The notes beneath the pieces are model-generated. The model searched no databases and had not been told where the DNA came from. It saw only the letters and a program-made list of their open reading frames with translations. Of a DNA stretch of 64,000 nucleotides, positions 8,482 through 40,966 are shown one piece after another (position 1 is the first letter of the stretch; each line of letters begins with the position of its first letter). The stretch is from Ulota crispa (lineage: Eukaryota > Streptophyta > Bryopsida > Orthotrichales > Orthotrichaceae), in the NCBI GenBank assembly GCA_963920765.1, contig OY987242.1, positions 25,940,002 through 26,004,001 on the forward strand. Direction: 5' to 3'. A program made the position numbers and the translations under genes.

Positions 8482-8785
8482 GTGCCCTTGTAAGTGCCCT
8501 CATAGGTGCCTTTGTAAGTGCCCTCATAGGTGCCCTTGTAGGTGCCCTCATAGGTGCCCTTGTAAGTGCCCTCATAGGTGCCCTCATAGGTGCCCTCATA
8601 GGTGCCCTCATAGGTGCCCTCATAGGTGCCCTCATAGGTGCCCTCATAGGTGCCCTCATAGGTGCCCTCATAGGTGCCCTCATAGGTGCCCTTGTAAGTG
8701 CCCTCATAGGTGCCCTTGTAAATGCCCTCATAAGTACCCTTTTATGTGCCCTCATAGGTGCCTTTATAGGTGCACTCATAGTTTT
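8482..8785. repeat. 12-bp minisatellite, about 25 copies
   Basis: Unit GTGCCCTCATAG with variants CCCTTGTA and CCTTTATA; the central 12 or so copies are identical. The period is a multiple of three, so frames stay open on both strands (Pro-His-Arg-Cys or Arg-Ala-Pro-Met repeats); these are not genes. Confidence 0.97.
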
Positions 8786-8799
8786 CAAAACTCTAGTCT

Positions 8800-9778
8800 A
8801 GTATTACTTTGTGCACAACTCCAACCTAGTATTAGTGTAAACAAGGATCACTTTTAATTCACAAATAGCTCACCAACCTTACTAAGGGCATCTTTTGCAG
8901 CACGCTTTGCAAGACTTAGATAAATGAGATTTCACTAGGAGAATGACACGAACCTTCACAACAAGGCTTGAAGTTCTCCTGCAACCCTGAAATCTTTAGG
9001 GCCAGCACTTGCGTTACAACGAATTTTGCAGGTAAACCTGACTATGGAGTGGGGTTGTGCATGAATAGAGCTTGCCAGGGACATTGAAGGGGGCATGTTG
9101 AAAGTTGAAATTTGATAAGAATGTGGCTCAATATGAAGGCCCCGCAACATGCACAAGGATGTGTCAAGTACTATTGGGGATTGAAAACAAGGAAGCTGTT
9201 ATGGCTGGGGAGTGCGGGGCTTAGGTAACGTGCTACAAGAGATGCTCTAAGGGCCTCTTTCCATATGACAAAGTGGGGGCCAGGGGAAAGAGGGGGGAGT
9301 GGTTTCATAAAAGTAAGACCAATTGTGGGTGGAGGATCTCAAGTCAAAACTATTGATTTTTAGGTTTGACACTTCCCTGTGGAAGGAGGTGGTGCAAATA
9401 ACCCTCACCATTGATCAACAAAAAGAAAAAGAAAAACTCAAAGTGAGCAATGCATTGATGACTTTCTTGAATGTACTTAACACTTTACAGACCAAGCAAC
9501 TAGCAAGTGGTCGATTCCTAGTTTATTTTAAATACATTTGGGATTTTTAAAGGTTTAATCTTCCATGAACACCAAACAGAAGGATTGTCGTCGTTTAATG
9601 CTTCTCCGAGTCACCAATGCAATGTGTAAGGTCATCCTAAAGATGTAAGCCAGTATTGTACACCCTTTAATAAGAAAAAAGATAAATCTTTCTAAACGTA
9701 TAATCAATTATTAATTTTCACATTAAATGATGTAACGCATAATTTGAAGCATAATTCACTATTAACTCCCAAACTATT
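8800..9778. other. Unassigned sequence of mixed composition
   Basis: 8940-9560 is GC-richer than its surroundings and has short frames on both strands with no recognisable domain. Possibly a decayed element. Confidence 0.4.
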
Positions 9779-20945: not shown

Positions 20946-21258
20946 CAATGTAATCATATTCCATTGGGAATTGCTAAATCCACCACACTTTCTGCTAAAT
21001 ACACCACAGGTCCCACCGCATGCCCCACCTCACACCACAGGCCCCACGCCACATCACAGGCCCCACCCCAAATTTTGAGCTTCTTGTACAAAATCCTACA
21101 GTTCTCATTTTCATCTTGTTTTTAATCCATATGCCAAAAATAAAAATAAAAATAGTATTTTAATCGGTTGATTAGTCTCACTAGATTTTTTTACATTTCA
21201 CTTGACCAACTTTCAATTGTTTTTTGGTTCTCTTCATATATTTAAAAGTTCCTCAATG
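20946..21258 (+). repeat. Left inverted arm flanking the retroelement
   Basis: This is the inverse complement of 31062-31443. Shared blocks include CTAAATCCACCACA, GCTAAATACACCACA, a CCCCACC-rich tract, TTGACCAACTTTCAATTG and GTTCCTCAA. The arms resemble the two halves of a foldback DNA element with the retroelement lying between them. Confidence 0.8.
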
Positions 21259-21689
21259 TCACGTGATGTGGCATTGTGGCTATGCCACATTGGATATATG
21301 TTGTTAGTGAATGATTTTTGTTTTTAGTAGTTTTGGAGAAGATTAGGACCTTTGGCACCTCATTTCATTTGGCACCTCATTTGAGGCTACTTAGGGTTTA
21401 GGGTTAGTTAAGGCAGGTTACTTTCTTGACTTGGCATTCTTTGCCAAGTCAAGTCTTGTGAGGTGTTTTTGAGAGAGAGTACGTTTGCTATGTATTTTTG
21501 AGTTTTATACTATTTTTCACGTTTCTCCTTGCACTCTTGGATTCTCCCGTGAGCGGAGTGAGAGGTAACTTGACTGAGGCTTAGGTGCTTAGATTTCGTA
21601 TCTTATCACTTGGCAAAGAATCCCGTTTTTGTTTTAGTTCTTGAGTCTTTGTGGTTTATAAGAATTTGGGTGTTTAGTTTATGGTTCCA

Positions 21690-22150
21690 AATTTATAGTT
21701 GAGTGAGTACGGACGCTTTGGTTTTGTTGAGAGTCGTGACGTGATCCGTACGGGAGCTGCGAGCTTGATTTGAGACAGAGTACGGAGGCTTGCCTTAGAT
21801 TCGGGAGCCGCGACTCAGGCAAGCGACGTCGGAGCAGGCCGCGCGACGAGAAGATTAGGGTTCGGGGAAGCGGCGCGGGTCTGGGTGGTACCGGCTGTGG
21901 GCGGGGACCAGCTGAGGTGACCGGAGCTGGGCGGCGTTCCAAGCACAGGTTTCGGGAGCCACGGCTAACAAAAATTAGGGTTTCGGAGGCGTTGCTGTAC
22001 CGAGCGGTGACGGCAGCGACGCCGAGAGCTGCGAGCGGAGCCGGAGCCGCGACCTAGTAGCGAACTTCGGAGGACGAAAAATTAGGGTTTCGAGAGAACG
22101 GTCGAGCAAGCGGAGCAGCTGCCGAAGCCGGTCAGAGCTGCGAGAGAGGA
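21690..22150 (+). other. GC- and CpG-rich leader of the retroelement
   Basis: A block dense in CG dinucleotides (runs such as GAGCCGGAGCCGCGACC), with repeated ATTAGGGTTTCG, in an otherwise AT-rich window. It precedes the gag-like region and probably belongs to the element's 5' end. Frames open across it are by-products of base composition. Confidence 0.7.
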
Positions 22151-23069
22151 ACTGGGGTTTCATCCGGCTTCACATCCGGTTTTTTTCAACCTTTTTGTTT
22201 ATTCCCATCCGGAGCTTTGACTTTTAAGACCGAAGCAATCTCTGTGTGGAAATTATTCCTCATCATACACTTGGTAAAATCTGAGCTAAATCTATCCCTC
22301 TGAAATTTCAGAAATCCACCATTTGAGTTACATTTCTAAAATCCGAAATCCAAAGAAAAGAGACATTTCTGAAATCTACAGGAATCCTAGATATTGCAGG
22401 AATTGCCAATGTTTCTTTGTGCAATTTTTGAGCATTGATTGTGGGGGCATTTTGGACTCCAAATCTTACATTTTATATATCAAAATGAGATAGAAGAAGC
22501 CAATGAACATTTTAGTATATTTTATTTTGGGTTTTGGTGAGATTTAGGTTATTCAATTGATAATTGAATTTCATACTTTTCCATACTTTCTTCTGATTCT
22601 TTTTTTTAATTTTCTTCTATTTTCATCTCTTCATCTTTATAGGTTTTTTTAGAGCAGTGAAGGCATTTAAATAAAGTTGGCATTAGCTTGCAGGTATTGC
22701 ACTTCACTTTCGCTACTTGCCAACAACCGCAGGTGAGTGTCGATTGCATTGATTTCATTTTTTTTCTACATATCTGTTGTTTGGAGAAGAGGATCCAAGA
22801 TTTGTGTTTTGGATTTTATTTTTGGTACCTTTCTTTGTTTGCAGACATTGTTCTATTTTGTGTTTGTGTTAGGGTAGGCGTATTGTGGAGGTGAGGCCGG
22901 ATTGATTATCAACAAGACCATTTTGTATGTGTTGGACTTGTGCTTACCGGATATCATTATCAAAAAATTACACAATTTGGTGGTGATTACGGATCAGATT
23001 GTCTTAAACCTTTAGATAGTTGCAGATTGCCTTGAACTTTTAGATAGTTGTAGGTATTCAGGTAGTTTG

Positions 23070-24420
23070 TTTATGGTGCAAACTAAGAGTCAATATTAAT
23101 GGTCTTCCTCACTAAACTACTTGGAGGGTGATCACATCAAGAACTTTAGGCCAGTGGTAGATACCAATGAGGTTTTTCAGTCTGAATCGGCGTTAGAGAC
23201 TACTAGTAGGTTTTGGATCTTAAATGTGGATATGTTTGACGAGATAGAAAACAATCACCGCATTTCAGTGCGTGATCGTTTTTTAGAACAAGCAGGAAGA
23301 TTTCTCTTCCTGATTGGAAGCTTTGCTTCCGCACATGAGTAAAAGAAAAGCGCCATAAGTTATTTAGTTTCAACGACGAGTTTGCTTTTGAGCTTCTGCC
23401 TTAGCATTTGGAGTTTGAGGCCCTTTAAATCTATAAGTAGTAGATTCATGCTTATCAGCTTGAGCTTCTTGAAGTGCAGTTTTATTATAAGACACAATTA
23501 AAGTTTATTTCAACTCTCAAAGATAGCGCAGTAGTTGCATTAACCTCCTCAACCGTGAACGTGGAGGAGAGACCTAGCAAGGGTGAGGTAGCAGTTTTTA
23601 AAAATCCTAAGGGCAAAACAAGAGCTTTGGGACCAAAGACAGAATGTGTCATATCATCCATCATGTTACTCATGGTTCAGGCTATTGCTAGCTATAGTTG
23701 GTCCCTTATTTTGATTCAATCTATTAGCGCAGTTCATTGCACATTTGAAGGTGGAGTATGGTGGATTCTGTCGTAATCAGATGCAACGTATTTAGAATTT
23801 TCAGAGGGAAAAAGGAGGATATGCCGCGCACCATGTACACTTGCTTGGCACGGTTTGCTGTCAAGTCTAGTGAAGTTTTCACTGAGAATCAACTTATGAA
23901 GATTTTTTTGTCAAAGATTGATAAGCAGTTGCTAGATTTAACATTCCCTTGGATTATCCTTAATTATGATGGTAAGGTACTTTAGTCCAAACTTTTGCTA
24001 TAGTTGAGAGATGTGGCTGGATTCTTTGTCATCATGATGCCACGAATATGGACACTTCCATGACAGATTCTTCCAAATTTGGGAAGACCTCTACTGTCAC
24101 TAGCAGCCTGGCGGACACTGAGCCAGAAAAGACCTTGCATTGTTGAAAATATAAGCAAGATGGACATGCTAAAAATAATTACTCAAAGAAACCATAAGAT
24201 TCTTTCTCAGCCATCCAAGGCTACTAAGAATGAAGAATTGAAAGGTGAAATTAAGGCTAAAAAGAATGCTTTGAAGTGCAACCATTGTGGTAATACTAAT
24301 TATAATGAGGATTACTGCTTTCTACTTCATCCAAAGATGAAGCCAGCTAGTTTTGTGGTTGTTAAGTCACAAAAAGAGAAGATCCTTGAGACCAAGGTAA
24401 TAGAATTAGAATAGAAGTTC
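23070..24420 (+). mobile_element. Retroelement part: gag-like region
   Basis: This segment precedes the protease and ends in a Lys-rich stretch with a zinc-knuckle-like Cys/His cluster (CNHCG near 24280), as expected for a Ty3/gypsy nucleocapsid. The capsid part shows no motif that I can name. Fossil. Confidence 0.6.
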
Positions 24421-24839
24421 AAGACTTTTGGATCATTGGCTTAAGCTTTTGATTCTAGAATATCTTTTAAAATGACAACTGGTTATTCTAGCTCTAAGCA
24501 TTATATATTTGGTGCATCTGGAGAGTTGGTAGCTGTAATTGTTACCTAATCTCAAACTATTAGAAAATCAGTTGATTCTCCAGTCTGAGACGTTACAGCT
24601 GTCTCACGTGCACGCTATAAGGGTCCTCCTAATTCCATTGGCCAGGCACGCCTACAATTATCTTTTAGTTTGGCTGATGTTGTAGTTACGGGTCAACGCT
24701 CAAATGTTTCACTTCCACATCTTGGAGGTTTTGCCTCATCTGATTTAGTGCAAAACATGGTTTCCAAAGTTATGCAAATGCAGATGTTTTCTAGCTCAAA
24801 GTTGATGGTAACTAGTTTTTAGATCTCTAAAATCTTTCA

Positions 24840-25300
24840 TATGGTAGGACGTATTTTAGAAGCGCAAGCGGACATGCCATCTCTTCAAGTTTTTCAGGCT
24901 ATTGCTAAGACCTCTTCAGTTCATAGTTCAAAGGCTCAAATAAAATTACGTACTAAGCTTGCAGCTGAAGCCATTGCAGCATTTAGCGAGCATGTAGATA
25001 GCCACACACCGCATCATTTTTCTATGGATGCGCCTTTAGCAGCAGGAGTAGCCTATTTTGCAGATGTTTTAGCAAGATTTGCTAGAGAGCAACAGACGAT
25101 ACATCCATGGGTTGTTTGTCTGATAAACAACAATGTGGTGTTTGTAATTTTACATAATAAAGAGTATGGTCATCAAGCTACTCCACTTAAAGTGATGATG
25201 GACTTAGGTGCCCAGCCAGTTATGATTGGCAAACATTTGGCAACAGAACTTGGCTTGACTGTTAAAAACTTGGTGCCTTGATTGTCACTTCAGTTAGGGG
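24840..25300 (+). mobile_element. Retroelement part: aspartic protease region
   Basis: A retropepsin-like segment centred on DLGAQPVMIG near 25200, followed by a typical helix (HLATELGL). It lies between the gag-like part and the methyltransferase. Fossil. Confidence 0.65.
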
Positions 25301-25849
25301 CACGGAACATGCTACAAGCTACATCAAAGAACCTTTACAGCTGATTTTTTGAATGGGTAGGAAACCTACTTATTCTCATTTTTCTTTGAGGTGCGCAATT
25401 GCCAATGCTATCAATTATAATATTTTAGTAGGTTAGCATGCGCTTTATCCTCTTGATTTTGATATAGATAACTAGACTAAAAAGGCGTGGATTAAACTGA
25501 GTTGGTCTTTTGGTGACAACTGAAAAGAACTGATTCCAGTGGCATTTGCAACATTGACTATGTCTATGATTGTTGACGCTATATTTGGATGCTCGACATC
25601 TCTAAAGTGGATTCCATTTGGCCCTTCACTTTTAGAAGAGACTTTGGCGTTTGCTGTTACATTTCCAAAAAACTGTCAAGGAATCATCAATTTTAGTAGT
25701 TACACCTCAACATCCCAAGTATATTTTGCCATCTTGGACTAGTCGTGAGGAATTGTCCCGACAATATATGGACGTTGCAGCTTCTGTACCTTTTAACTCT
25801 TTAGTTTCTAGCTCTATCAGCTCTATGTTTAGACAATCTATTCATTGGC

Positions 25850-26760
25850 GTCCTTCTTTAGACAGAATCACTTTTGTGGAGCTTTTTGGAGGCATTGGCA
25901 CCGGATTTGCAGCCATTTTAAAGGTTGGATTCATAATTAGGCGGTACATTCATGTTGACGACAGTTATGTACCTACTAGAGCAATCCGATATCATCTTCA
26001 GAGGTTGATGGCTCAATTTTCCAAGCAGTTGCCTCCATTATTCATTTATAAATGTTTTGACCACAATTCTAGAGACGTTACCCTTATCAGTGACGAGGAT
26101 TTGAGGAGGTTGGGCCACGTGAATTTGCTTGTGATAGGATGGCCTTGCTAAGATCACTCACGAGTATGCGTAGGTCAAGGGTTAAATAATCCCAGATCTA
26201 GCCTTTTTATAGAGTTAATGAGAATTACATAGTGTTGGTTTATCCACCAATCCACTCCACCTAGGTTTATTTTTGAGAATATACCTCCGTTGGGAAATGA
26301 TCAGCAAGAAGTGATGGAAAATAGCTATTATATTTGCTAAATTTTTTGCTATCCAACTTTTGTGGATGCCGCGGCATTAAAGACGCTTGCCCATCAACTA
26401 CGTTGGCTTTGAACCAACATGATGTCACATTATATATTGGCTAAGGCTTTTTCACAGATTATCAGATTTTCAAGACGTGTTGTGAGAGATATTTTGGATG
26501 ACCATAGGAAATCTTTGGCTGTGACCAAAGATGATTCACTTCCATTTGCTTTGGTCAACAAAGTTGGGAAGACTTACGAGGCATTACCGACCTTTGTTAC
26601 ATATCAAAAGTCTTTTGCATTCCGAGCACGTGGACCTGACATGGTGTGTGATTCTCACAGTCACACTTATAAGAAACTCAATGCAGAAAAGCAAAAGCGT
26701 GTCATGGGCTTTTCTACTGGCTTTACAGTAGCTCATGATTTTTCTGAAAGTCAATGATAC
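25850..26760 (+). mobile_element. Retroelement part: DNMT3-like C5-cytosine methyltransferase domain
   Basis: C5-methyltransferase motifs appear in canonical order: motif I FVELFGGIGTG near 25880, an acidic motif II after it, the motif IV Pro-Cys region near 26145, a motif VI ENIPP near 26275, a motif VIII-like segment near 26370, and a motif IX/X region with GF-S-TGF-T near 26710-26730. Plant DRM enzymes have rearranged motifs, so canonical order points to DNMT3 or a related type. The domain lies between protease and reverse transcriptase, so it belongs to the element and is not a host gene. Fossil. Confidence 0.8.
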
Positions 26761-27149
26761 TTTGTATTGGGTCAAACTATGAATCTTCATATCATAATTT
26801 GGATTATTGGTATTTGCCTTATTGTTCAGCAGCGACATGGCCATTTGTTTCCTCTGGGGGTAGAAAACAATGGTCAGAGGGCAATAAGAATGTCAATTGC
26901 TATTATTAGAAAGGATTTTGAGCATCATTTTATTTTCAGTGACAAGCTTTGAATGAGCTTCAAGCTCAAAAAACCTTTGCTACTTTAGCCTTAAATGGCA
27001 ATGCTGAGGCAGTGATACTGTCCGTTCCTCTTCTGATTAGCAATTACAGGTTGTGTCCACATCTAATAGTAGTTCTTTGACAAAAAAGACTAATACAGAG
27101 TTTGATGATTGACCTCTGAGTTTAGGTCATTTTCTCATAGATGTTGAAG

Positions 27150-28570
27150 CACATGGGATGCAAGCATTCATTCATTTGTACCGGAGTTGCTTTGTTATTA
27201 ACTTTTATGACTTTGAGGGTTACAAAGACAAGCTCATTTATATTCAGCTTGAAGATGAATATTATCAGACGTCCTTACAAGCTGAGTAATTTTGGGAGAA
27301 CTAGTATTTAAGCTCGATATCAGGAGCTTTTAGCTGCGATTTTTATTGAGCTATCCAATAGCAAGTACGTTTGTGCTATAGTGATGCTTTTTAGGAAGGA
27401 TATATTTGGTAACTAGACTAAGAAAAAGATGTGTAGAGATTACCGTCCGGTCAACAAAAAGACTAAATTAAACCAATATTCTATGCCGACGCCAGGAAAG
27501 TTATTTAATGTAGTGGGATTAGCTCAAATCTTCAGTACATTAGATTTGAGATCTAGATACCGCCAGTTGCTACTACGCTTAAAAGATTGTGTGAAGATTA
27601 CATTTTAGGGAGTGCATCATGATAGTAGAGATCTACTCTATCATTGGAAGTTTTTTCTTTTTGGTTTTAAAAACGCACCCACTGAATTTTAGAGGGTGAT
27701 GGATTGTATTTTGACTTGATTGCCATTCGCTTAGTGCTATATTGATGATGTTATTGTCTTTAATAATTCACCTCAGGAGTATGTGAGGCATTTGCAAGCC
27801 ATTTTTGAGCGGTTGTATGAGTGAAGATTGCGCTTGCATCATGGCAAGTGCAAATTTTTTCATGAGAAGTTATTACATTTGGGACACATGATAGTTCCAA
27901 AAGGACTTGGAATACAATAAGCAAAGGTAGATGCTTTTCAAAAGCTTCCAACACCTTATGATGTTCCAAAGTTGCGTGCATTTCTTGGCTTAGCGAATTA
28001 TTATCGCCATTTTGTCAAGAATTTTAATTTGATTGTCAACTCTTTGACTATGCTCACTGGCAAAGACCAAATTTAAACATGGAACCGTAAGCAATAGTTG
28101 GTTTTTGACATGTTGAAGCAGAAGTTGAGCTCAGCACCTGTGCTTTGACGTCTTGATGTTACGAGGCCTTTCCAATTGCACACGGATTAGAATGTAGTGG
28201 GATTAGGTGCAGTTTTGACTCAGAAAAATAATATAAGATGTGAATATATTATTGCTTTTGCTTCAAAAAGTAACAACTCAGCAAAGTCCAACTATTTGTC
28301 TTATGAGGGGGGAGCTTTAACCGAGGTATGGGTCATTTTACATTTTCAGCCTTACATGTATGGGCAGCAGTTTACATTGGTGACTGATCATCAACTTTTG
28401 AAGTGGCTTATGGAATCAGATAAACTCACTGGCAAGCTTGCTAGGTGGGTTCTACTGCTTCAAGAGTACGATTTTGAGATTGTTTATCAAGCTGGTATCA
28501 CTAACTTGGATGCGGATGGAATTTTTTGCAATCCAAGTCTTTTTGATGAGGATTTGACTGGTGCTAGATG
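27150..28570 (+). mobile_element. Retroelement part: reverse transcriptase and RNase H
   Basis: Ty3/gypsy reverse transcriptase motifs are visible: DYRPVNKKT near 27440, LDLRSRYRQL near 27545, FGFKNAP near 27662, and YIDDV near 27740. A C-terminal RNase H region follows (TDHQLLKWL near 28385). Fossil. Confidence 0.85.
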
Positions 28571-28889
28571 ACATGGGAATGCGACATGGAGGTAGTTTCA
28601 GGCTGGCACGCAGTTGCTTATTTGACTTTGATATCAAGCTCTGCTACTAAGGCGGCTGATTTATATTTGAATGGTGAGTCTGATAAATCTCAAGGTATTG
28701 GAGATGTGTGGAAAGAGTTAGTGGTCTTGTACAAACTTCAGCAGGGATCATTTCCTATGGGTATTTCTATCATAGAGCGAGACAAAATTTACCATCAAAT
28801 AGCAAGGTTCTATTGAGATAACGACTTGCTGATTTGAATTTGACAGAATGGAGGTAGACGTATGATTCCTTGATTGGATTAGAGAGCTT

Positions 28890-29960
28890 TTTTGATATGG
28901 CAAATGCATGAAGAGTTTATTCATTTTGGAGTATGCAAGACGCATTCTATATTGAGCAACCAGTATTGGTGGACTGACATGTATCAACAAGTTTCCACCT
29001 ATGTTTCTCAATGTGAGGTGTGTGATCAAGTGAAATCAAGTTTTAACACCTTATTGCCACAGTTGAGACTTTTACCAATCATGGATTTAGGTTATCGTTG
29101 GTCTTTGGACTTTGCCGGGCCGCTTGTTGTCACCCCACATGGAGCCAAATACGTATTGGTGATAGTAGTTCATTTCAAAAAATGATTTGAGCTGGTTACT
29201 TTGCTTCAGAACTCTTCGGAATTGACAACTATGACATTTCTTGACCGCGTACTGGCACGCTTTGAAGCACCGGCTGAAGTCTTGACAGATCAAGGCCAAG
29301 AGTTTCTAAAAGCTTTTGAGGTTTTATGCACCAAAATTTTGTTTGGTCACCGCACCACCTCTAGAAATTACATTGAGGCAAATGGTTTGGTTGAGCGGAT
29401 TGTTCAGACAGTCAAATGTGGTTTACGCAAGTATCGATTGTTTTGTGGAAACTATCGGGATTAGAATTTGATGTCGCCATGGATTGTCATGGGTTATTGT
29501 TTCAATAGCTAGGCTTCTTTGGCCTCTTACAACTTTTACTAGTTGCTTCGTGGACGGGAGCCTATTTTGTTTAGCTCCGTGCAGCAGAAGCTGACTTTAG
29601 TCGTGGACTTAGATAGTCTAGATGTTTAGGCTCAATGCCTACATGATCAGACTAAATTTTTCAAGAGGGCCATGCCTATGGCTTTGGAGAACTTGCACAT
29701 AGCCCAACATCGAGATTCTTTGCGTTATGTGCATATTTGTAGCAATGCTTATGGACTTTGGTTGCGAAGGTTCTCTCAAGGAGATTATGTGTATTTGCAG
29801 TGTGAGGCGCCCACCACATTGGATGTCAGAGCAGAGCGTACCATTCTTCGCGTGAAGAACGTATTGCCTAGTGGAATTTTCTTGTTGGAAGGCAAGGATG
29901 GACAAGAGTACAGGGAACATTCTAAAAATTGTGCCCCTTGTCACTTGCCCATTGATGGTA
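28890..29960 (+). mobile_element. Retroelement part: integrase
   Basis: An HHCC-type zinc-binding region (HEEFIHFG, CEVCDQVK) comes before the DDE core (SLDFAGPL near 29105, LTDQGQEF near 29280, and a Glu before NGLVER near 29375). A beta-rich C-terminal domain follows (GDYVYLQCEAPTTL near 29780), as in Ty3/gypsy integrases. Fossil. Confidence 0.82.
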
Positions 29961-29989
29961 CCGTGTAGCCGGAGGTGGCAGTGGTGCCA

Positions 29990-30145
29990 GAGGATTTACC
30001 TTATTTTGTTTGTGGTGAGAAGAAAGGCGCGGCTACTATGCTTTTGTGTGACCAGTGCCAACGTAGATAGCATATGGCATGCTTAGTTCCGTCCTTGTCG
30101 ACTCTGCCTCCAGGAGATTGGATTTGTCCTTGTTGTATGAGATCT
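29990..30145 (+). mobile_element. Retroelement part: C-terminal PHD-type zinc finger
   Basis: A Cys4-His-Cys3 pattern with the spacing of a PHD finger: CGEKK, then MLLCDQCQR, then HMACL, then PPGDWICPCC. It follows the integrase where chromoviruses carry a chromodomain. PHD fingers usually read histone H3 tails, so a targeting role is likely (inference). Fossil. Confidence 0.72.
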
Positions 30146-30645
30146 TCAAACTATGCTATGTCTCCGGACAAGCGCTGATAATCTTTTGAAGTCAAGACTC
30201 TTATGTTCAAAATGACAGCATTGCCACCTTTGCTGACGAGGCGTTAGATTTGCAATGTTCCAAATTGAACTCATGGGAAATTGAATAAGAAATTGGCACT
30301 AAAAATCTACTAAAAGCAATTAATAATAGGGCTCATTATTGAACTCGGCCTACAATCTTTTATACATTCTTTTCATCATGTTCACTTGTCATTCTTGGCT
30401 GCCAACAACCTCACCTTCAGTGTGGATAGATGTTGAAGACTTTTTATTCATCTTAACATTTGGATCTAGCTATATTGTTAGTATAGTCCTAGCTGACTTG
30501 CAGATCTCTATTGCTAGTTAGAGGGCAATTGAGAGCATATTTGTATGTATGTTTTTGGGTTACATTTTTGTTTTTATTTGCTTTTAGTGATAGTACACGA
30601 TGTGTTGTGTTTAGCGATCTCTATTTACATGACATTAAAAAAAAA

Positions 30646-31053
30646 GAATTGATATGTGCACACCCATGGTTTAATACATGCACACCTTTTGGGGGTAAAT
30701 TTTAGATTTTTACCATCAAAAAACAGAACTTGAAAATTTTGCATTCAAATTTAGATTTAGAGACCTTGATTTTGTCTAAAGCCATGAAGGATGTTACAAT
30801 TGAACATCACCCAATGAAAAAGCTTAATTTTTTTAAATAAACAAAAGTAAAAGTAATACTTTCCATCTTAGCCAAGCTTTTTCATTGAGTGTTATTCAAT
30901 TGTAATCTCCTTTATGGCTCTAGACAAAATCAAGGTCTCTAAGTCCAAATTTGAATTCAAAGTTTTCAATTTTCTCTTTTTGATGGTAGAAATCTAAAAT
31001 TTACCCCCAAGGGATGTGCATGTATCAAACTCCGAGTGTGCCCATATCAATTC
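30646..31053. mobile_element. Mutator-like MITE, family A (copy 3)
   Basis: An inverted-repeat element of about 408 bp sharing arms with the copies at 3558 and 7251 (TTACCATCAAAAA, CCAATGAAAAAGCTT, ACCTTGATTTTGTCTAAAG). Its ends, GAATTGATATGTGCACAC, are diverged. No target duplication is visible. It sits against the right inverted arm. Confidence 0.85.
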
Positions 31054-31061
31054 ATTTTTTT

Positions 31062-31443
31062 TTCTTTGAGGAACTTCTAAATGTATGAAAAGAACCGAGA
31101 AGCAATTGAAAGTTGGTCAAGTGAAATGTGAAAAAAATCTAGTGAAACAAAAATCAACCGGTTAAAATGCAATTTCATTTTTTAGTTTTTGGGATATGGA
31201 TTAAAAAGCCGGATGGAAATGAGAACTATAGGATTATGTACAAAAAGCTCAAAGTTTGGAGTGGGGCCTATAATGTGGGGTGGGGTCTGTGGTGTGTGGT
31301 GGGGCCTGTGGTGTGAAGTGGGACATGGGGTGGGCTATGGGGTGGGACATGGGGTGGGCTATGGGGTGGGACATGGGGTGGGACTTGTGGTGTATTTAGC
31401 AAAAAATGTGGTGGATTTAATAATTCCCTATTCTATTATAATG
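31062..31443 (-). repeat. Right inverted arm flanking the retroelement
   Basis: Counterpart of the left arm at 20946-21258, longer because a GGGGTGGGMYAT minisatellite has expanded at 31318-31384. It abuts a MITE on its inner side and a foldback element on its outer side. Confidence 0.8.
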
Positions 31444-32306
31444 TACAATACCAGTTAGTATTGATAGGTAGAACTTGTTTTGGCATTCCAAAGAAGTTTG
31501 TAAAACAAAAAATGTAAAGGTCATTTTAATCTCATATTTCTGGCATATGATTCTCATGCAATTCCAATTGAACATACCACATCTTGGTTATGAAAAATCA
31601 AAATCCTATTTTTGGTATATTATTTTGTGTCAAAACTGCAGTTTTACTAGAAAGTTGATCAAAATACGTTAGTGATGAATTTTTAAGATTTGATTGCATG
31701 GATGGATAGGAGACATCCAAACACACATCTTTCCTTTTAATAAACATCTTCAAAAAGTTCAAAATTTTGTCAATAGAGGTTCAAATGCTGGAGTGATCAT
31801 GACCAAATTTAGTAAAATAGATAATTATTTATGGTAATTAAATTGTGCTATTTGACTCATACATTACATTTATACCCTTAAACATGTGATATGTTTATTT
31901 TGCCAAAAGCTAATTAAAAATGGAGATATTTATTTTACTAAATTTGGTCATGATCACTCCAACATTTGAACCTCTATTGACAAAATTTTAAACTTTTTGA
32001 AGATGTTTATTAAAAGGAAAGATGTGTATTTAGATGTCTCCTACCTATCCATGCAATCAAATCTTAAAATTCATCACCAATGTGTTTTGATCAACTTTCT
32101 TGTAAAACTGCAATTTTGACACAAAACAATGTACCAAAAATCAGATTTTGATTTTTCATAACCAAGATGTGGTATGTTCAATTGGAATTGCATGAGGATC
32201 ATATGCCAAAAATATGAGATTAAAATGACCTTTATATTTTTTGTTTTACAAACTTCTTTGGAATGCCAAAACATGTTCTACCTATCAATACTAACTAGTA
32301 CTGTAC
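31443..32306. mobile_element. Foldback element, 864 bp
   Basis: Arms of about 370 bp are inverse complements from GTACAATACCAGTTAGTATT to AATACTAACTAGTACTGTAC. They include GGCATTCCAAAGAAGTTTGT and CATGACCAAATTTAGTAAAA; only a short centre (about 31830-31915) is unpaired. No transposase. Open frames on the two strands are the same arm read twice. Confidence 0.9.
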
Positions 32307-33676
32307 AAGTCTTCCTTTCTTGTTGGACTGATGGGATTATGTCTCTCATGCCGTAATTGGAGATGCCCATCTCATAGTCCCCATCCCCATGCATCTCCAT
32401 CCTCATGCATTCCTATGCTCCAAGGCCAACCCCCTCTAGCTCCATGCCCCCCTCCATCTTCCAATCCAAGCCCCTACCCGATCCCGTCCCTAGCCAAGCC
32501 CCTCGGGGAGTGCACTCTCCATTTTTTTTGGGTACAAGTGCAATCAAATGAAGGGTTATTTTAATTACCTTGATCCTAAATTTTTGACATGGCTTGGAAA
32601 TAAATAAGCTTCACTTTAATAGGCTTTGGGTCTTTATAAGCAATGAAGGGTAGTGTTTATTAATCAGTATTACATATTTTTTAGTTCTAAAATAGGGTTG
32701 TTAAAATAAGAAATAAAAAATCAATACTTTTATTAGTTGTAGGTCTAGTTTATTTTTCATGGTTATTACTTTTGCATGTATCTGAAGCAGGATCCAATGC
32801 CTTGTATTAACATTAGAAGAAAAATAGCAATAAATAACTAAGTCACTTAGTTGTAGTGCAGTTATTATGACCATGTAACAACTATGGAACCACTACATAT
32901 GATCACAATAACTGCACAACAACTTAGTGACTTAGTTGTTTATTGCCATTTTTCTTCTACTGTAAGCAACTTCTTCATGGTTATTTATGGGCAATTAGGA
33001 CATGCCATGTGTCGTTCAAGCACGCGGTTTAGAGACGGAATATTAAGGTAAGATGAAAATTAATTGATGCAAGCTTTATTGTTCAAGGATTAGTTGACGT
33101 TATCTTCCTGTGTGGGCAAAATTAGTATGTTTAGGTTACTTTTTAGCCACAATTGACAAGTGTTGTAAATGCATTCATGATGAATCAAGGGAACTCCGTG
33201 TTATCAACTTCAAGCCATAAGCCACTCTAATTGCAAGTTCAATTGTTGCATGCTTAAACCCTAACAATGAATGTCACTAATTCTCCAACTAGTGGGTGAA
33301 TTTCTTCCCATGTCATTATGTAATTATAATGAACATATGGTACAAAAAAAGATGAAAATAACCTTTTTAAAATGAAGTATAGGGTATATGAAATGCCTTC
33401 AATTTAGAAATTTAGGTAAAGATAGCCTTATGAAAATCCAAATAATTTACCTACATAGCCCCCCTCTTATAAGACCTTGCACGCACGTTATCCACAAAGA
33501 CCCTATATAGTGCACTCCTTGAGCCAAGCCCATAATGGATCCCCCAATCAAGCTAGGACCAAATCCCCTAACCAAGCCTCAACCAATGATCAATCCTCTA
33601 GCCAAATATAATTTAGTTAATTTAGAAGTTAATTTAGTTGACTGACCGTTAACATTATAACCAAAAGCTGCATTTA

Positions 33677-33680
<4 letters not shown>
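32307..33680. other. Intergenic DNA between transposon clusters
   Basis: A CCCCATG-rich tract (32335-32510), one CACTA-type MITE and AT-rich DNA; no gene seen. Confidence 0.5.
32811..32962. mobile_element. CACTA-type MITE, relative of 696-860
   Basis: A 152-bp palindrome with ends CATTAGAAGAAAAATAGC and GCCATTTTTCTTCTACTG and arms CAATAAATAACTAAGTCAC. Same design as the copy at 696. Confidence 0.8.

Positions 33681-33746
<66 letters not shown>
33681..33746. repeat. (AT)n microsatellite
   Basis: About 33 AT dinucleotides in a row. It directly abuts the CTAG end of the Helitron-like fragment, whose family inserts between A and T. Confidence 0.97.
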
Positions 33747-33748
<2 letters not shown>

Positions 33749-33749
<1 letters not shown>

Positions 33750-34027
33750 TAGTATATAGCTCATCGTACCAACGGGTTATGTCCCCCATGGTTCCCATGA
33801 CCGCATGCCCCCTCCTCCATGCCCCATGACCCATGCCGTACATACCATCTCTTTATGCCACTTGTGGTTAAACTTGAACTTTATTTCAGTTAAACTTATA
33901 CTCTACTCTATCTCTATTTTTAAGTAGACATCCAAATTTTACTTTAACTTGTGCTCTACCTTGTCTTTACACAAAGCTTGCCCTTGACCAATTGGGTGGA
34001 GGATTGAGCTTCAAAAGTTGATTAAAT
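33749..34027 (-). mobile_element. Helitron-like fragment (second copy)
   Basis: On the minus strand it ends CGTTGGTACG, then GAGCTATATA, then CTAG (33752-33749), directly against the (AT)n tract. The body shares CTACTCTATCTCTATTTTTAA and CAATTGGGTGGAGGA-type sequence with 4960-5135. A Stowaway element begins at its other side. Confidence 0.45.
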
Positions 34028-34029
34028 TA

Positions 34030-34353
34030 CTCCCTCTATCCCAAAATGATCTTCTTGTTGACCTTTATTTAGTGTTCCAAAATGATCTTCTTGTTGTAAA
34101 AAAAAAGGAGTTAGTGACACTTGCACATAGTCCAAAAATATGAGCATGCTAATCAATCCCATACCATCAAGTGAGTGGCCACCAATGCTCTTCAGAAATG
34201 CCTCAAAAATTCAATTTTCAAGCACTTTAAAACCACAATTTGAAAACGAATTTGAAACTCAATAATTTAAATATGGTTCTTTTCGAGCTTAATCTTTAAC
34301 ATTTTGTGTTTAACATTTTGTGTAACAAGAAGATCATTTTGGGACGGAGGGAG
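34030..34353. mobile_element. Stowaway MITE (Tc1/mariner)
   Basis: A 324-bp element with ends CTCCCTCTATCCCAAAATGATC and its complement (GGGACGGAGGGAG), flanked by TA on both sides. This is the classic Stowaway terminus. The right TA begins the TATATAAG upstream of the PMT gene. Confidence 0.95.
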
Positions 34354-35024
34354 TATATAAGTAGAAGATATAACGTCGGTGACAAAACCTCTCATTACGA
34401 ATATGCTTGATACTCTATCCAGTACCATAAAAAAACATAACGAGTCACATTAATAGCTGCTCTACACTAAATAACTAAACCGAAGAAGACGAAGCCTTCA
34501 GTCTCCGCCGGCGGGGTTGTCGTGAACTGCGCCACTGTTGAGGTAGCCTCGAGGACATGGTCATCGGGCTATGGCCGCTACACAAATCTCATACTATTGT
34601 CGCTCTTGACGATTTCCGAAACACTCCAGTTCAATCGTTGCATTGCACAACACTCGCAAAAAGCTTACATAAATTTTTATAGCCAGAGTTTGTCATTTTT
34701 GCTCGAGTATTGATTGTTTTATGAGCCTGCAATCAATCGCAATTTGCTATCTCTCAATACCTACATTTGTGATTGGAAGGAGTTTGCAGAGTTCAGGAAT
34801 CATATGAGAAGTATTGATTGCAGAGACATGTGGAGAATTGGAGTAGTAGGGGTTTGAGATAAAGAGTTTTTTGCTTTTTATGTAAATTTTCTTTCATCTT
34901 AAACTTTGGAAAGCGGAGTTTTGTGATTGCCGTCGCACGGGGATATGCTTGTCGTCAATTGTAATTTGCAAGCTGTCGGAATAGACTTGTGTTTGTTATT
35001 GTGATCGTTGTTGCGCTTTTTCTG
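34354..35024 (+). promoter_or_regulatory. Probable promoter and 5' leader of the PMT gene
   Basis: TATATAAG at 34354-34361 overlaps the right TA flank of the Stowaway element. Downstream the DNA becomes less AT-rich (CCGCCGGCGGGG near 34507) and free of long repeats up to the start at 35025. Inference from position and composition only. Confidence 0.35.
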
Positions 35025-38000
35025 ATGTCTGGTCGTCATAGTAGTTCGAGATCGCGAGGCGGCCGTAGTAGTAGCGATGGAATCGCCCGGAGTAGTAGGC
35101 GTCTGGTTTTGATCCTGGCGTGCACAATGGCGGGCATTGTGTTTCTGCTCTCGTTTCAGCGGAGCTCTTTCTTCCGCTGGCATCAGGATAAAACCCTGAC
35201 GCACGCTGATTGGACTGTGACGGAGGAGCCTTTGATTGTGAGCGTGGGAGATGCTGGTGGCGAAGATTTAAAAAAGGACGTGATTGAGAATAAAGGAGAT
35301 GGAAAAGAAGAGGAGAAAGAAGATGTAGAGGTTAAGGAAAGAATGGAAGAGGCAGAGGATAAAGAAGACGAGGGCGTTGGAGCACAGTTTGAAAGCTTGG
35401 CATTAGGCAATGAAGCAGCTGTTGGTCACGAAGAAGAGGCGCTTGAAGAGGAGGCACTAAGCGACCATGACATGCTCCAAGTAACGTTGAAATCATTTCC
35501 TGTAAGTTTGGTCGAAACCTGAGCTTCTTATTAATTAAAGCGCTGAGTATAATTTCTTTATTAGAATGGTTAGATTTTGAAATGTTCTTATCAAATCAAA
35601 GACGATTCAACGCACGATTTGGATACCGTGTGAAAAAATTATGATTGATCAAAGTAGCTGGTCTAAAACTGGCATGAATTCTAATGTTGCAGTGGTGTAC
35701 ATTTCCAATCAATACGTACTCCTTGTGTGCAAGATTTTGGAGTTTTGCATTGAGCTAGGTTTTGCAATTAGGTTAATTTCATTTGTTCGAGAAAGAATGA
35801 GACGTTGGAGTTCTTTGAAGCGCTTCCTGTAGTATTTTGAGTTCAATATTTGATAAAAGCTGCCTTTTTCACATACTACTCATCATGATTTTGAATTTTC
35901 AGCCTTCGCATACATGCCTCATGGTTCGAAAGTTGCAAAGTCTTGGGGCTCACATGAGTGTTGACATTGCTATTTCTCACATCACTTTTAGTGTTCTGAT
36001 TGACTTTGGTGCTACTGTGGAAAGTTTGCAAGCCGGGCACTACTCAAGGATTTGCTGTTGTGTTCACTTGCCTAAGTTTTGAAATTCTGAATTAGCTTCA
36101 GATGTTGGAACTGAGGCAAGAGTCTGCAGGTCTGTGATTCTCGATACACAGAATTGGTTCCCTGCTTGGACAGGAATCTAAACCATCGAATGAAATTGAA
36201 GCTGAATTTGTCATTGATGGAACACTATGAGCGACATTGTCCGTCGGCGGATCTCCGGCTCAATTGTCTCATTCCACCTCCTCCAAATTATAAGGTACTT
36301 TTATCCCGTCAGCGTTTATGCAATTTTCTCATTTTTGAAGGTCATTTTAATCTCCTTCTCTTTTTTTTGTTTATTTGTTTCCTTTTAGAACCTTTAGATT
36401 GTACTGTTACCAAATGAAGCGTGTTTTGGACGTTTTATTGTCAAATTGCATACTCTCCATATAATATGGAAGACAGCTGTGCACACTTCTTCTGAATTGA
36501 CTCATTGCTTACAACGGAGAGCAGGTGCCTATTACATGGCCGAAGAGCAGGGATGAAGTTTGGCAAGCGAACGTGCCACACACTTTCCTTGCTACTGAGA
36601 AGTCCGATCAACATTGGATGGTTGTCCAAGGAGAAAAAGTGAGCTTTCCAGGGGGTGGTACTCATTTTCCAGATGGTGCGGACAAGTACATTGCCCATAT
36701 TGCTAAGGTGATCGTCTACTTATACTTTCCTAGTAGTGGCTCCTTAGCATCAAAGGCGCAACATGGCCACACTCTCCTGAATTAGAGCTGAATGATCATG
36801 GTGTGCAATGCATTTAGTTAGAATGCATAATAACCATCAGGGAGGGACGTAATCCCATCCCCTATCAGTTGGTGTAATTGATGTAAGCATGATTTGGTTA
36901 AATGTCTGGGTCGCTCATCTTTGAATGGAAATGGGGTTGTCTATTGTCACTTGTCGTAATCTACAACCTGCCACTTTAAAGTTGCATAAGAAATTCATAT
37001 ACAAGGATAGAGATTTTATATCAACAGATTTAGCTCTTGTGCCCAAAGATCTGTCCACGGTTCTTTACATTATTGAAGATCGCAATCCACATATCTTGAA
37101 ATGGTTATAGTAGCAGATCCTCTACCTCACTTACTTCGAGTTGGAGCTGGTAATCATATGACGAGCAATATGCTGTGTAGGTTCTGCATAATTTTTGGAA
37201 TGTTCTGCTCTCATTGACTTTGAGAAACTGCCTTTATGTTCTTCTGAAAGTGTCCAAGGTGTAGCTACAGACATTTGAAAGACACCAAGTCTTTCAGTCA
37301 CAAATTTAGCACTCAATCTAATCTTAAACTTTTTGAAATAATGAAGGTTTGTACTGAGTTGTTTCTGAACAGATGCTCAAGAACAAGGATGGCAATCTGA
37401 GCAGTGGTGGCAAGATCAGGACGGTCTTCGACGTTGGATGTGGGGTGGCAAGTTTTGGGGCTTACCTATTGCCAATGGACATCCTAGCGATGTCTTTAGC
37501 CCCGAATGACGTTCATCAGAACCAAATACAATTTGCATTGGAGAGAGGTATCCCTGCAACATTGGGAGTCTTGGGCACGATGCGGCTTCCGTATCCAAGC
37601 AAAGCATTTGACCTGGCCCATTGTTCCCGTTGCCGAATCGACTGGAGAGAGCGGGATGGAATTCTGTTACTGGAAATTGACCGAATTCTGAGACCCGGAG
37701 GCTACTTTGTCTGGTCGTCTCCTGCCGTATATCGAGATGATCCGGCGGAGAAGCAGGAATGGACAGAGATGGTCGATCTCGTCAGCAGGATGTGTTGGAC
37801 GATTGCCGCCAAAAGGGATCAAACTGTCGTCTGGGCGAAGCCCGTCACTAATGAATGCTACGAGAAACGACCTCCTGGAACTTGGCCTCCGTTGTGTAGC
37901 ATCGCCAACGACGCGGACACCGGCTGGGAGGAGCCTATGAAGATCTGTATAACTCCTGTGACATCCCGTGAGCATTTGTAGCACCATTAATCCTTGTATG

Positions 38001-39465
38001 TTTTTTTCGATTGCGTTGTATGAATGGGAGTCCAGTGCATCTGACTACTTCATGCTCTGTTGCAGAAAGCAGACCTGAGAGAATTTTTTTGTCGCCGTGG
38101 CCACAACGCATGAACAGCCCTCCTTCCAGGCTGAAGGAGCTAGGATTCAACGACAAAACCTTCGTAGATGACACGGTACCGGCAACCATTCTTTTATGAG
38201 TTTCGTTCATGGTCATATTCGCTTGAATGGCATGTTTCAATTCACCGACATTGTAATATTTGAGCTCACAGAGCCCTTAAAACCATGACTTGGGATTTCC
38301 AAGTGATTGCCTGGAAACGCTCCAGTTTCTTGAAATCTCGTCATTTTTACGAATATAACAATGTTTCCTGTTGTCGTCACCCCCCTTGTTTTGTTTCTCC
38401 TTTTTCGGCCCCTGGGCTGTGGCAGTAGTTCGTGGCGTTGTGCAGTATCGGTATTTTTGTTATACCTTTTGCTTTTTATTTTACAAATAGGGTCAAGCTG
38501 TGAGGAAATCTTGAAATAAAATCATGGAATAATGCACAGTAAGTTTCCTGGCTGGTATTAGTAGCTAACTATGTCTTTTTATATCTGTGCCCTGTAGATT
38601 GCATGGAAGAAGAGAGTGGACCTTTACATGCAGAAGCTGAGAGCAGCCAACCAAGTGGAAGATGACAGTTTTCGGAACGTAATGGACATGAAAGCGAACT
38701 TCGGCGGGTTTGCCGCCGCGCTTCAAGAGATGGAACGGCCAGTGTGGGTCATGAACGTGGTTCCTATTTCTGGACCAAGCACTCTGAAAATCGTCTATGA
38801 CCGTGGTTTCATTGGTTCCTATCACGATTGGTATGGTTCCATCTAGTCTCGTTATTTCAAGTAGCCACTCACATCTCATTCGTTCTGTCATGAATTGATC
38901 TGGACATTCAGTTCTCTTATAGAGTCTTTTTATTTATTTTGTGACTCTGCAAGTGATTGCTGTATACTTGAGCAGGCCTCCGTGTGATCATTGTGACCTC
39001 CCCATGAATCATGGGAAAGATTTTCATCATGCTTTCTGAAGCAACACAGCTTTACTGAAACCCTGTTTTCAGCTGTATACACCTTGATTGAATAAGTCCT
39101 GCTGAATGCTAACCAAGCTAACAATCTTGTAATGATCCCATGTGACTTGCAGGTGCGAGGCATATTCAACATATCCACGGACATATGACTTGTTGCATGC
39201 CTGGAATGTGTTCTCCGATGTCTACAACCATGACTGCAGCCCAATAGATCTGCTCCTTGAGATGGACAGGCTCTTACGTCCACAGGGGGTTGTCATTATA
39301 CGTGACTTAGGCTCTCTTATCGATCAAGTCAGGACACACTTGAATGCATTGCACTGGAATTTGTGGTCTGTTGTCTTTGATGCTGAAAAAGATGCAATTT
39401 CAGATCGGGACGAGAAAATCTTAATTGCTCGGAAGCGGCTATGGCAACCGGAGGATATCTTATAG
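35025..39465 (+). CDS. PMT-type (DUF248) putative methyltransferase, PMT1/3/8-like, 7 exons, 691 aa
   Basis: Exons: 35025-35501, 36130-36294, 36525-36707, 37373-37967, 38066-38175, 38598-38830 and 39153-39465. All introns are GT-AG, phases agree and the CDS is 2076 nt. The N-terminus is basic, with one signal-anchor helix (about residues 27-45) and then an acidic Glu/Lys/Asp stalk (about 75-155): a type II Golgi membrane protein. The methyltransferase region follows: VCDSRYTELVPCLDRNL, HYERHCP, FPGGGTHFPDGADKYI, the SAM-binding motif FDVGCGVASFGAYL near 294, LAHCSRCRIDW, LRPGGYF and STYPRTYDLLHAW near 590. This pattern is closest to the Arabidopsis PMT1/PMT3/PMT8 group; relatives such as QUA2 act in pectin methylation, so a cell-wall polysaccharide substrate is likely but not shown. 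An in-frame ATG at 34989 would add 12 hydrophobic residues; 35025 (MSGRH) fits the family better. Confidence 0.93.
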
Positions 39466-40706
39466 ATCTGTCCACGCTTACATGCCTCCAAATCCGGCAA
39501 AGAATAGAATGATGGAGCTTGCAAGGCTTAGGTACATGTATTGACCAAATTTTTTTGATGTCTGCATGGCTGAATAGGTTGCTAGTTAGGAGGCGCATAC
39601 TTGGTCTTCTGTTTTTTAGGTTAATCCGTTCCGCAGTATGTCATTCCCTGCGAATAATGGACAGCTAGGTTGTCTATATGGTAAAGACTGGAGTTGCTAC
39701 ATTGATGTTCTTCATTGACAGAGCCATTCTGAAAGGGTATGTATGAAGTCCACTATGGATTGGTCCTCACGTGGAAGCTGATTTGATTTAATTAGCTGCT
39801 GATTTCCTCGTTCTGCTATATGTTAAGTGTTACCCTTTCTTTAAGGTCTTGATGTTCAGGAAATATAGACTGATTAACTCTCGGGACGATCTGTTTGAAA
39901 CTGGCTATAAGTTACAGATATCTTAATGTTGTCTTACGGAAGAAAATATGCTACGGAAGTCATTAATAAAAATACTAGATTACTGAACGTCATGGGCTTT
40001 TATAAGCAGCGCATTTTGCTTGTCTATATGTTCAGGAAAGACGAGGTTATCAGAGGAAGGTTGAGCTTATGACTTATACCCATGCTTAGGCAGAGCAAAT
40101 GCAAGATGCTACAGTTACAAAACCCTCTCCATTTGGCAGGATGAGTACCTTACATGGCTGTCGATTTTTGTGAAAGATTAATTCACTCACAATGCATTGT
40201 CTTCTGAGTGCCACCGAAATAGATGCCAATGGTTTAGAGTTTTATGTATGTTCATAGTATAAGGGATTGTTGAAATTATGATTTATGTTTAGATTTAATA
40301 ATTGATTGGTATTGTTAGTAGTTGTTAATATGGTAATTAACAGATATCAATGGTTTGTATAAATCATATTTCAAAGTATTATTTATCAAACTTTGAATGA
40401 GTTTATCTTTTTGGCATTCAAGCAATACATAACATGTCATATTTCCATGAGGGTTTCTTCTTTCAAATTGCTAGTAGAAACACAGGTTGCGCAAGTGTAA
40501 CATGTCACTTTTTGACGAGTTCCATCAAGTGTGGGTCTTAAGGCTTGGTCTATAAGGTTGAAAAACCTAAAACTAACACAAGTCTTTCTCCGACATCTAA
40601 ATAGAAACCTAAATGTAAGCAGTGCTGTACCCAAACATATACCCAAACCAGACATGCAGGCACCCATACTAGACATGCAAGTCAAAGTAAGGGAACACAA
40701 ATTGTG

Positions 40707-40966
40707 TAAAACATGATATTCATTAAATTAGGAAAATGCGATTCCCAAGTTGTACTTCACCTAAAACCAAAAAAGTCACCATAAACCAAATTTGAAAGTA
40801 TTAGATTTAGTTTGAGCCACTAAGATTTTTTCCCTCCTAAATTCCTCCTCTTAAGTGAGGGCACGTGTACCAAAAAAAGGCTGGAGCTCGGTTTAAGGTG
40901 ATCACTTTAAACCTTCAAAAGTCCCAAAATCTACTTTTTTTCCCAATTTAATGAATATCATGTTGT
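40707..40966. mobile_element. MITE family G (copy 2)
   Basis: Ends ACATGATATTCATTAAATTA and TTTAATGAATATCATGTTG. The centre has GAGCCACTAAGATT and GTGAGGGCACGTGTACCAAA, the inverse of the centre of the copy at 48144, so the two are inserted in opposite orientations. Confidence 0.82.

Follow-up and report, generated by a model that had tools for sequence, protein, structure and literature searches.

The DNA analysed here, called the window, is a stretch of 64,000 nt of Ulota crispa (OY987242.1; GC content 37.2%). On its + strand, at about 21257-30634, lies a decayed Ty3/gypsy element in which a DNMT3-like C5 cytosine methyltransferase stands between the protease and the reverse transcriptase (RT). 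The protease-RT-RNase H-integrase order of Ty3/gypsy long terminal repeat (LTR) retrotransposons is present, the integrase ends in a PHD finger, and the element belongs to a family of at least 84 loci in this genome. In the copies that could be aligned there, the methyltransferase is followed by a conserved stop codon that we predict to be leaky. The best explanation we can offer for the enzyme, put forward as a proposal, is that such elements methylate their own new complementary DNA (cDNA).

The features of the window copy are as follows, L001 being the intact relative described below and P0001 an intact protein.

21257..21608, + strand: 5' LTR of about 350 bp, its TG...CA ends read by eye; it corresponds to the 3' LTR position of other copies
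21436..21449, + strand: self-primer stretch inside the LTR, its 14 nt complementary to those at 21608..21621; forms the 3' half of a hairpin
21608..21621, + strand: putative primer-binding site, directly abutting the 5' LTR
23090..24399 (start approximate), + strand: decayed gag, located by tblastn with L001 gag
about 24277-24330, + strand: zinc knuckle in gag, read by eye
25174..25541, + strand: aspartic protease and linker, 60-66% identity by tblastn, active-site region MMDLGAQPVMIG
25849..26883, + strand: DNMT3-like C5 cytosine methyltransferase, pseudogenised (Pfam PF00145; 57% to P0001, 52% to L001)
27038..27040, + strand: conserved stop UAG at the methyltransferase/RT junction; the next six bases are CAATTA (CARYYA)
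27261..28025, + strand: reverse transcriptase, pseudogenised, 68% to L001
28077..28571, + strand: RNase H, 73% to L001 (Pfam RT_RNaseH, E 1.3e-24)
28805..29800 (end approximate), + strand: integrase, pseudogenised, 68% to L001
29981..30154, + strand: PHD finger at the integrase C terminus, with one internal stop (Pfam PHD, E 2.4e-10; 74% to L001)
30155..30634, + strand: 3' untranslated part, up to where the in-register match to other copies stops

Pfam Asp_protease_2 on the window protease (E 0.0076) and Pfam rve on the window integrase (E 2.7e-4) both scored under their cut-offs. No 3' LTR of the window copy was found within 30001-42000, so that this copy shows only its 5' LTR. Long inverted repeats adjoin the element at 31442-32307 and 30637-31062, with arms of 242 nt (94% complementary) and 189 nt (86%), and these foldback elements may have displaced the 3' LTR.

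The methyltransferase domain and its copies in Ulota crispa

Frame 1 of window positions 25850-26760 reads as a C5-methyltransferase interrupted by in-frame stops (RITFVELFGGIGTG...GWPC*...ENIPP...RWL*TNM...MGFSTGFT), and these stretches, which we take to be motifs I, IV, VI, VIII and X, stand in the canonical order I-IV-VI-VIII-X. With the stops given as X the domain passed Pfam DNA_methylase (E 2.8e-10, 40.6 bits against a cut-off of 22; residues 63-148 matched), and its homology to the L001 enzyme, 25849-26883, goes somewhat beyond the range first given. Of 641 candidate proteins, 24 matched the window domain at E <= 1e-3. The best is P0001, with 57% identity across all 297 residues; in P0013 and P0020 protease-tail sequence is fused to the methyltransferase, as judged by eye. 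DNMT3A/B are nearest by fold and by sequence. DRM was not among the 50 fold matches shown, which excludes nothing; in BFVD the fold matches were limited to remote enzymes of phages, giant viruses and herpesviruses, and scans of viral contigs found no relative. We regard the identity of the domain, and the order of domains as listed above, as close to certain.

The sequence-only reading of this DNA had described a Ty3/gypsy fossil holding a C5-methyltransferase of canonical motif order between protease and RT, and the element order with its in-frame stops, the Pfam result and the match to P0001 bear this out. It had also called the enzyme DNMT3-like and unlike plant DRM, which agrees with the host DRM exons of Ulota crispa, as in these the C-terminal motifs precede motif I (permuted), unlike the element order. 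On possible grouping with the plant's own gene the answer is partial, in that the domain stands apart from host DRM (28% identity over 125 aa) and the comparison covers DRM only. In the tree the window domain sits with element enzymes and apart from host DRM; just three rows of this tree come from outside elements, and the fork that joins the window domain to its partner has weak support (81/54). Host CMT-like and MET1-like exons, named by eye, are also present. For a host DNMT3 gene there were seven DUF3444 matches, of which two neighbourhoods were read, and no methyltransferase was seen in those two.

The assembly (274.8 Mb, 157 contigs) was searched with intact P0001 as query, giving at least 92 scored matches (166 candidates), all with at least one internal stop, that merge to at least 84 loci on contigs C1-C11. 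Counting the window, we examined 32 copies; the other 31, out of 83 further loci, comprise 23 stretches of 9.9 kb and 8 of about 4.2 kb. L006 and L007 are near-identical and hence not independent. The protease is immediately upstream of the methyltransferase in 31 of the 32 copies and RT is no more than about 1.5 kb downstream in 28, the exceptions being L024 (neither protease nor RT), L012 and L019 (no RT) and L013 (RT at +4.7 kb, behind extra sequence). The search for other copies of the same order that the sequence-only reading had suggested thus speaks against a chance insertion, and we rule out the landing of a host pseudogene on the ground of this shared position.

Near-constant spacing splits the copies into two main subfamilies, one with an RT offset of about 1362, near the type of the window, and one with an offset of about 1437, which holds the copies most similar to L001; L010 and L032 are among a few more divergent copies. 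The PHD stretch is present in 18 of the 24 long loci checked and was not found in L012, L013, L019, L024, L028 and L031. That direct LTRs flank the coding region is seen from other copies, four of the eight tested having LTR pairs (three of about 340 bp, the fourth partial). The two members of a pair differ by a Kimura two-parameter distance of 0.11-0.17, with 118 transitions against 24 transversions.

With regard to the arrangement of loci, there are two inverted, equal-scoring copy pairs 11-20 kb apart, C3:32753133-32754350(-) with 32773812-32775029(+) and C4:9402358(-) with 9413189(+), and L006 is identical to reverse-complemented L007 at 4217 of 4218 bases. Such pairs are possibly a recent inverted duplication, and then a possible source of hairpin RNA, or an assembly artefact. 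Contig C11 (6.3 Mb) has 8 of the 84 loci, with 1.9 expected (Poisson P 9e-4, uncorrected for the picking of that contig), and is possibly a sex chromosome or a heterochromatic contig.

Junction stop, primer site, decay and neighbouring sequence

The junction between methyltransferase and RT was aligned for 28 of the Ulota crispa copies, with L019, L022, L024 and L032 left out as the junction is missing or unalignable. Every one of the 28 has a stop at one shared column, 25 of them TAG and 3 TAA, never CAG, and in 25 of the 28, as in L001, the next six bases are CARYYA. The hexanucleotide varies among its synonyms, with CAACCA or CAACTA mostly in one subfamily, CAATCA in the other and in L001, and CAATTA in the window. 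In intact L001 the TAG stands in frame between two open reading frames (ORFs). We considered and rejected ordinary decay as the origin of this stop, as the background is 1108 stops per 54462 aligned codons, against 28 of 28 at the junction and the intact L001 besides.

A CAR YYA sequence 3' of UAG is essential to readthrough in tobacco mosaic virus (TMV), and candidates for readthrough among rice gypsy elements have been noted (PMC2754532). Readthrough of the TMV type is what we would predict for the junction stop, which is very probably leaky. Because the conserved UAG-CARYYA separates them, the methyltransferase falls on the Gag-protease side, and RT, integrase and PHD finger would need readthrough.

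Directly after the 5' LTR, at 21608-21621, is ACTTGGCAAAGAAT, the exact complement of ATTCTTTGCCAAGT within the LTR (21436-21449). L001, the LTR ends of which are unmapped, has ACTTGACAAAGAT and ATCTTTGTCAAGT at the corresponding places (LTR-internal stretch at 7239-7251, its partner at 7415-7427), which is a compensatory change, and its adjoining hairpin arm co-varies with the primer pairing. Among eight further copies the 14 nt are kept in L034 and L037, and 10 nt in L033, L036 and L040; L039 has a different 10-nt match at unchanged spacing, and the remaining two have none of at least 10 nt. A single pattern for a tRNA-Met-type primer site was searched for and not found; other tRNAs were not searched. 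The complementarity of 13-14 nt leads us to predict self-priming as in Tf1-type elements. There is a second inverted repeat by the LTR start (window 21265-21291), which reads GATGTGGCAT...ATGCCACATC in L033/L011 and L034/L014 and is imperfect in the window.

In comparison with L001, the methyltransferase differs more often at third codon positions than at first and second ones on average, by a factor of 2.0 in subfamily A and 2.2 in subfamily B, the corresponding values being 3.4 and 3.2 for integrase and 2.6 and 2.4 for RT. This third-position excess indicates that the methyltransferase was under purifying selection while the lineages were active.

As to how the copies decayed, 808 of the 1108 stops (73%) in the 32 copies are at sites that are Gln, Arg or Trp in L001, which make up 13.4% of sites, and this bias is what C-to-T changes of both strands leave behind, as happens in methylated DNA. 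The pattern tells us how the copies died and not that their own enzyme methylated them. At Gln sites, counted over both ORFs of the Ulota crispa copies and uncorrected for codon use, TAG (207) exceeds TAA (86), a surplus that might be due to CHG methylation (CAG).

Elsewhere in the window there is a minisatellite-like + strand frame of Cys-Pro-His-Arg repeat units at 8405-8857, where the opposite strand is also open, and at 37358-37981 a host exon that is a candidate for a pectin-methyltransferase-type protein, which we take to be QUA2-like.

Relatives in other genomes

One scan of genome contigs gave a single locus, L001, of 9285 bp, filed under a Synechococcales cyanobacterium metagenome-assembled genome (MAG). 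Its two ends are identical over 127 bp, which is what results if the assembly of a repeated element is closed into a circle. L001 has one open frame for gag, protease and methyltransferase and, after the in-frame TAG, a second for RT, RNase H, integrase and PHD. Plant-type retroelement sequence is thus found under two bacterial MAGs, as L001 and as protein P0002 (Obscuribacterales), and both are probably eukaryotic contamination.

With the first frame of L001 as query, 7985 candidates were scored and at least 33 of them are relatives at E <= 1e-3; these include full-length proteins of 1228-1451 aa and five proteins of Marchantia polymorpha, such as Mp_4g09160. The sequence-only reading had left it between elements that reached a land plant and elements that persisted in one; the balance now leans to persistence, because related elements are present in Marchantia and, more distantly, in chlorophyte algae.

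A wider search, with the L001 integrase tail and PHD as query, gave 214 proteins at E <= 1e-3; among the 120 listed we analysed 119 further ones. PHD is present in 118 of these 119, the query itself having contained PHD. A methyltransferase-like stretch is present in 52 by local profile, and PF00145 in 15 by the precomputed Pfam list. Among the matches listed the order is RT-RNase H-methyltransferase-integrase-PHD in 19, RNase H-methyltransferase-integrase-PHD in 4 and methyltransferase-integrase-PHD in 26, with the domain before RT in one frame in 2; a further 19 are RT-RNase H-integrase-PHD frames without methyltransferase, which may be second ORFs as in L001. Marchantia Mp_7g09570 has a methyltransferase remnant of 77 residues between protease and integrase, and the match in Pleodorina is just 83 residues. 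The position of the methyltransferase thus differs by branch, being on the Gag side of a leaky-type stop or beside the integrase. The catalytic site is spanned by 38 of the 52, with Cys and Glu kept in 36 of the 38 and also in the streptophyte-type proteins inspected; the two exceptions are from Volvox reticuliferus and Tetrabaena socialis.

The PHD of the element resembles those of CHD4, PHF12, UHRF1, KDM5A/B and PHF21A. Several of these bind histone H3 unmodified at K4.

Proposed mechanism and comparison with known systems

The sequences establish the domains, their order and recurrence, the conserved stop with its context, the complementarity at the primer site and the constraint on the enzyme; that readthrough takes place, that the enzyme is packaged in the particle and acts on cDNA, and that the PHD finger binds histones, we infer. 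The self-primed Ty3/gypsy element would make a Gag-protease-methyltransferase polyprotein ending at the leaky UAG, to which occasional readthrough would append RT, RNase H, integrase and PHD finger. Synthesis of the DNMT3-like enzyme would thus be on the scale of Gag, and inside the particle that carries it the enzyme would most likely methylate the element's own fresh cDNA before or at integration; the integrase, by way of its PHD finger, would be guided to insertion sites by histone H3 tails. We put the probability of this whole mechanism at about 0.5, a little better than even, and methylation of the cDNA by the element's own enzyme is by itself an evenly balanced proposition.

Several observations weigh against the proposal. 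Readthrough is predicted from context alone, and the junction DNA is only from L001 and the subfamilies of one genome. Although real, the constraint on the methyltransferase is less strong than that on RT or integrase; of seven coding stretches compared, it has the smallest third-position excess in subfamily B, and in A only gag has a smaller one. No CpG signature of self-methylation stands out against the window background (observed/expected 0.494 in the element and 0.475 in the window). The sequence-only reading had suggested methylation as camouflage or to limit host damage; this finds no support here: the copies show the C-to-T decay expected of methylated, silenced DNA, and their CpG depletion is no different from that of the whole window. 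In P0087 of Volvox reticuliferus (residues 1-233) and P0103 of Tetrabaena socialis (3-290) the domain has no catalytic Cys, no EN of motif VI and no motif-VIII Arg, within open frames of about 1100 aa that include integrase and PHD. It looks catalytically dead in these proteins and is possibly a dead partner of the DNMT3L type, so that in some branch, to judge by its residues, the domain is retained without catalysis. The enzyme could also act on RNA or on host DNA.

The last point leads to two other explanations, each of which we consider unlikely. In one the methyltransferase is aimed at host chromatin or the insertion site and, with the integrase PHD, silences the surroundings or restrains transposition, lowering harm to the host. 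The fusion of PHD to integrase in L001, in most of the long Ulota crispa loci and in nearly all further relatives listed (the query having contained PHD) is in keeping with this, as is the resemblance to the PHDs of CHD4, PHF12, UHRF1 and KDM5A/B, and slower transposition was raised as a possibility by de Mendoza 2018 (PMC5890265). However in this subgroup the conserved stop separates the Gag-side methyltransferase from integrase and PHD, an argument limited by the other relatives that hold all three in one frame. Marginally less likely again is a domain that acts on RNA, or is mainly structural or nucleic-acid-binding with catalysis secondary or dispensable. It sits beside Gag, the two volvocine proteins keep it in open frame without Cys, Glu and motif-VIII Arg, and RNA methylation has been suggested for the Symbiodinium LINE DNMT (PMC5890265). 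Against this, Cys and Glu are kept in nearly all the further relatives that span the sites and in the streptophyte-type proteins, and in fold the domain comes nearest to DNMT3, which works on DNA.

That a host methyltransferase pseudogene landed by chance in one element is already refuted: all that favours it is that the plant has such genes (the DRM, CMT-like and MET1-like exons), and it conflicts with the recurrence among copies, the intact relatives elsewhere and the grouping with element enzymes and not host DRM. Beyond self-methylation of cDNA one can imagine a Ty3/gypsy clade spread over the green lineage with a split reader-writer kit, in which a DNMT3-like writer and an integrase PHD that reads unmodified H3 recreate the logic of ADD-DNMT3, so that a new copy arrives methylated in H3K4-unmethylated chromatin. 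The leaky UAG of streptophytes would set the writer at Gag level, and the volvocine writer would have become a dead DNMT3L-like partner. Taken jointly these steps are speculative and improbable, more so than either of the two explanations above.

With regard to significance, there is now a large fossil family (at least 84 loci) in another genome, with relatives in Marchantia and chlorophyte algae and an integrase PHD in most members with a readable integrase end. The sequence-only reading is extended by the PHD finger, the conserved stop, the primer site with its LTR and the scale of the family. A genuine DNA-methylating enzyme in a large family of elements, with relatives in a liverwort and in green algae, suggests that new copies may be marked by the elements themselves. 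The reason for an element to retain an enzyme of the kind used to silence it can now be approached by comparison, and intact enzymes exist for biochemistry.

DNMT-bearing retrotransposons were reported earlier from one charophyte and from dinoflagellates (PMC5890265), and a 2025 paper cites DNMT3 in streptophyte and dinoflagellate retrotransposons (PMC12344493). Among the open-access papers listed, judged by title or abstract opening and with subscription papers and preprints outside the scope, we found none that reports a connection with PHD fingers, a leaky stop of this kind, or members in bryophytes or volvocine algae. The closest known element is KnitGypsy-Dnmt3 of Klebsormidium nitens, for which de Mendoza 2018 (PMC5890265) described a gypsy Pol polyprotein with a non-rearranged DNMT3-type enzyme under purifying selection and intron-less copies, reported that retrotransposon DNMTs methylate CG sites de novo and put forward the idea of self-methylation. 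By description the two are set apart, as KnitGypsy-Dnmt3 has a DIRS-like repeat structure (Fig. 4 legend) and the Ulota crispa element direct LTRs; the main text of that paper does not mention PHD, which the Ulota crispa element has together with the UAG-CARYYA stop after the methyltransferase and the self-primer site. SymbioDIRS-Dnmt3 and SymbioLINE-Dnmt of Symbiodinium are likewise retrotransposons with a C5-methyltransferase, but are DIRS and LINE elements with independent acquisition according to the same paper, and ours is Ty3/gypsy.

Among plant elements, self-priming has been predicted for the Tcn1 and TAR lineages, in a paper the main text of which mentions neither methyltransferase nor PHD (PMC6317226). 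The Tcn1/Tf1-sushi chromoviruses are also like our element in occurring in non-seed plants; however they carry a chromodomain after the integrase, whereas L001 ORF2 has PHD and no chromodomain (Pfam, E <= 0.1), and the element has the methyltransferase in addition. Plant host DNMT3 (DNMT3-DUF3444; PMC6453930) shares the DNMT3-type catalytic core but has a C-terminal DUF3444, for which the L001 ORFs have no match, and DRM shares this core in permuted form, the element order being canonical. An orchid Ty3/Gypsy with an m6A demethylase domain (PMC9289625) is a further plant element that acquired a nucleic-acid-modification enzyme, in that case an RNA demethylase and in ours an enzyme of DNA methyltransferase type. 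Elements like KnitGypsy-Dnmt3 are thus already known, and it is the PHD, the leaky stop, the self-primer and the range over bryophytes and volvocine algae that are new here.
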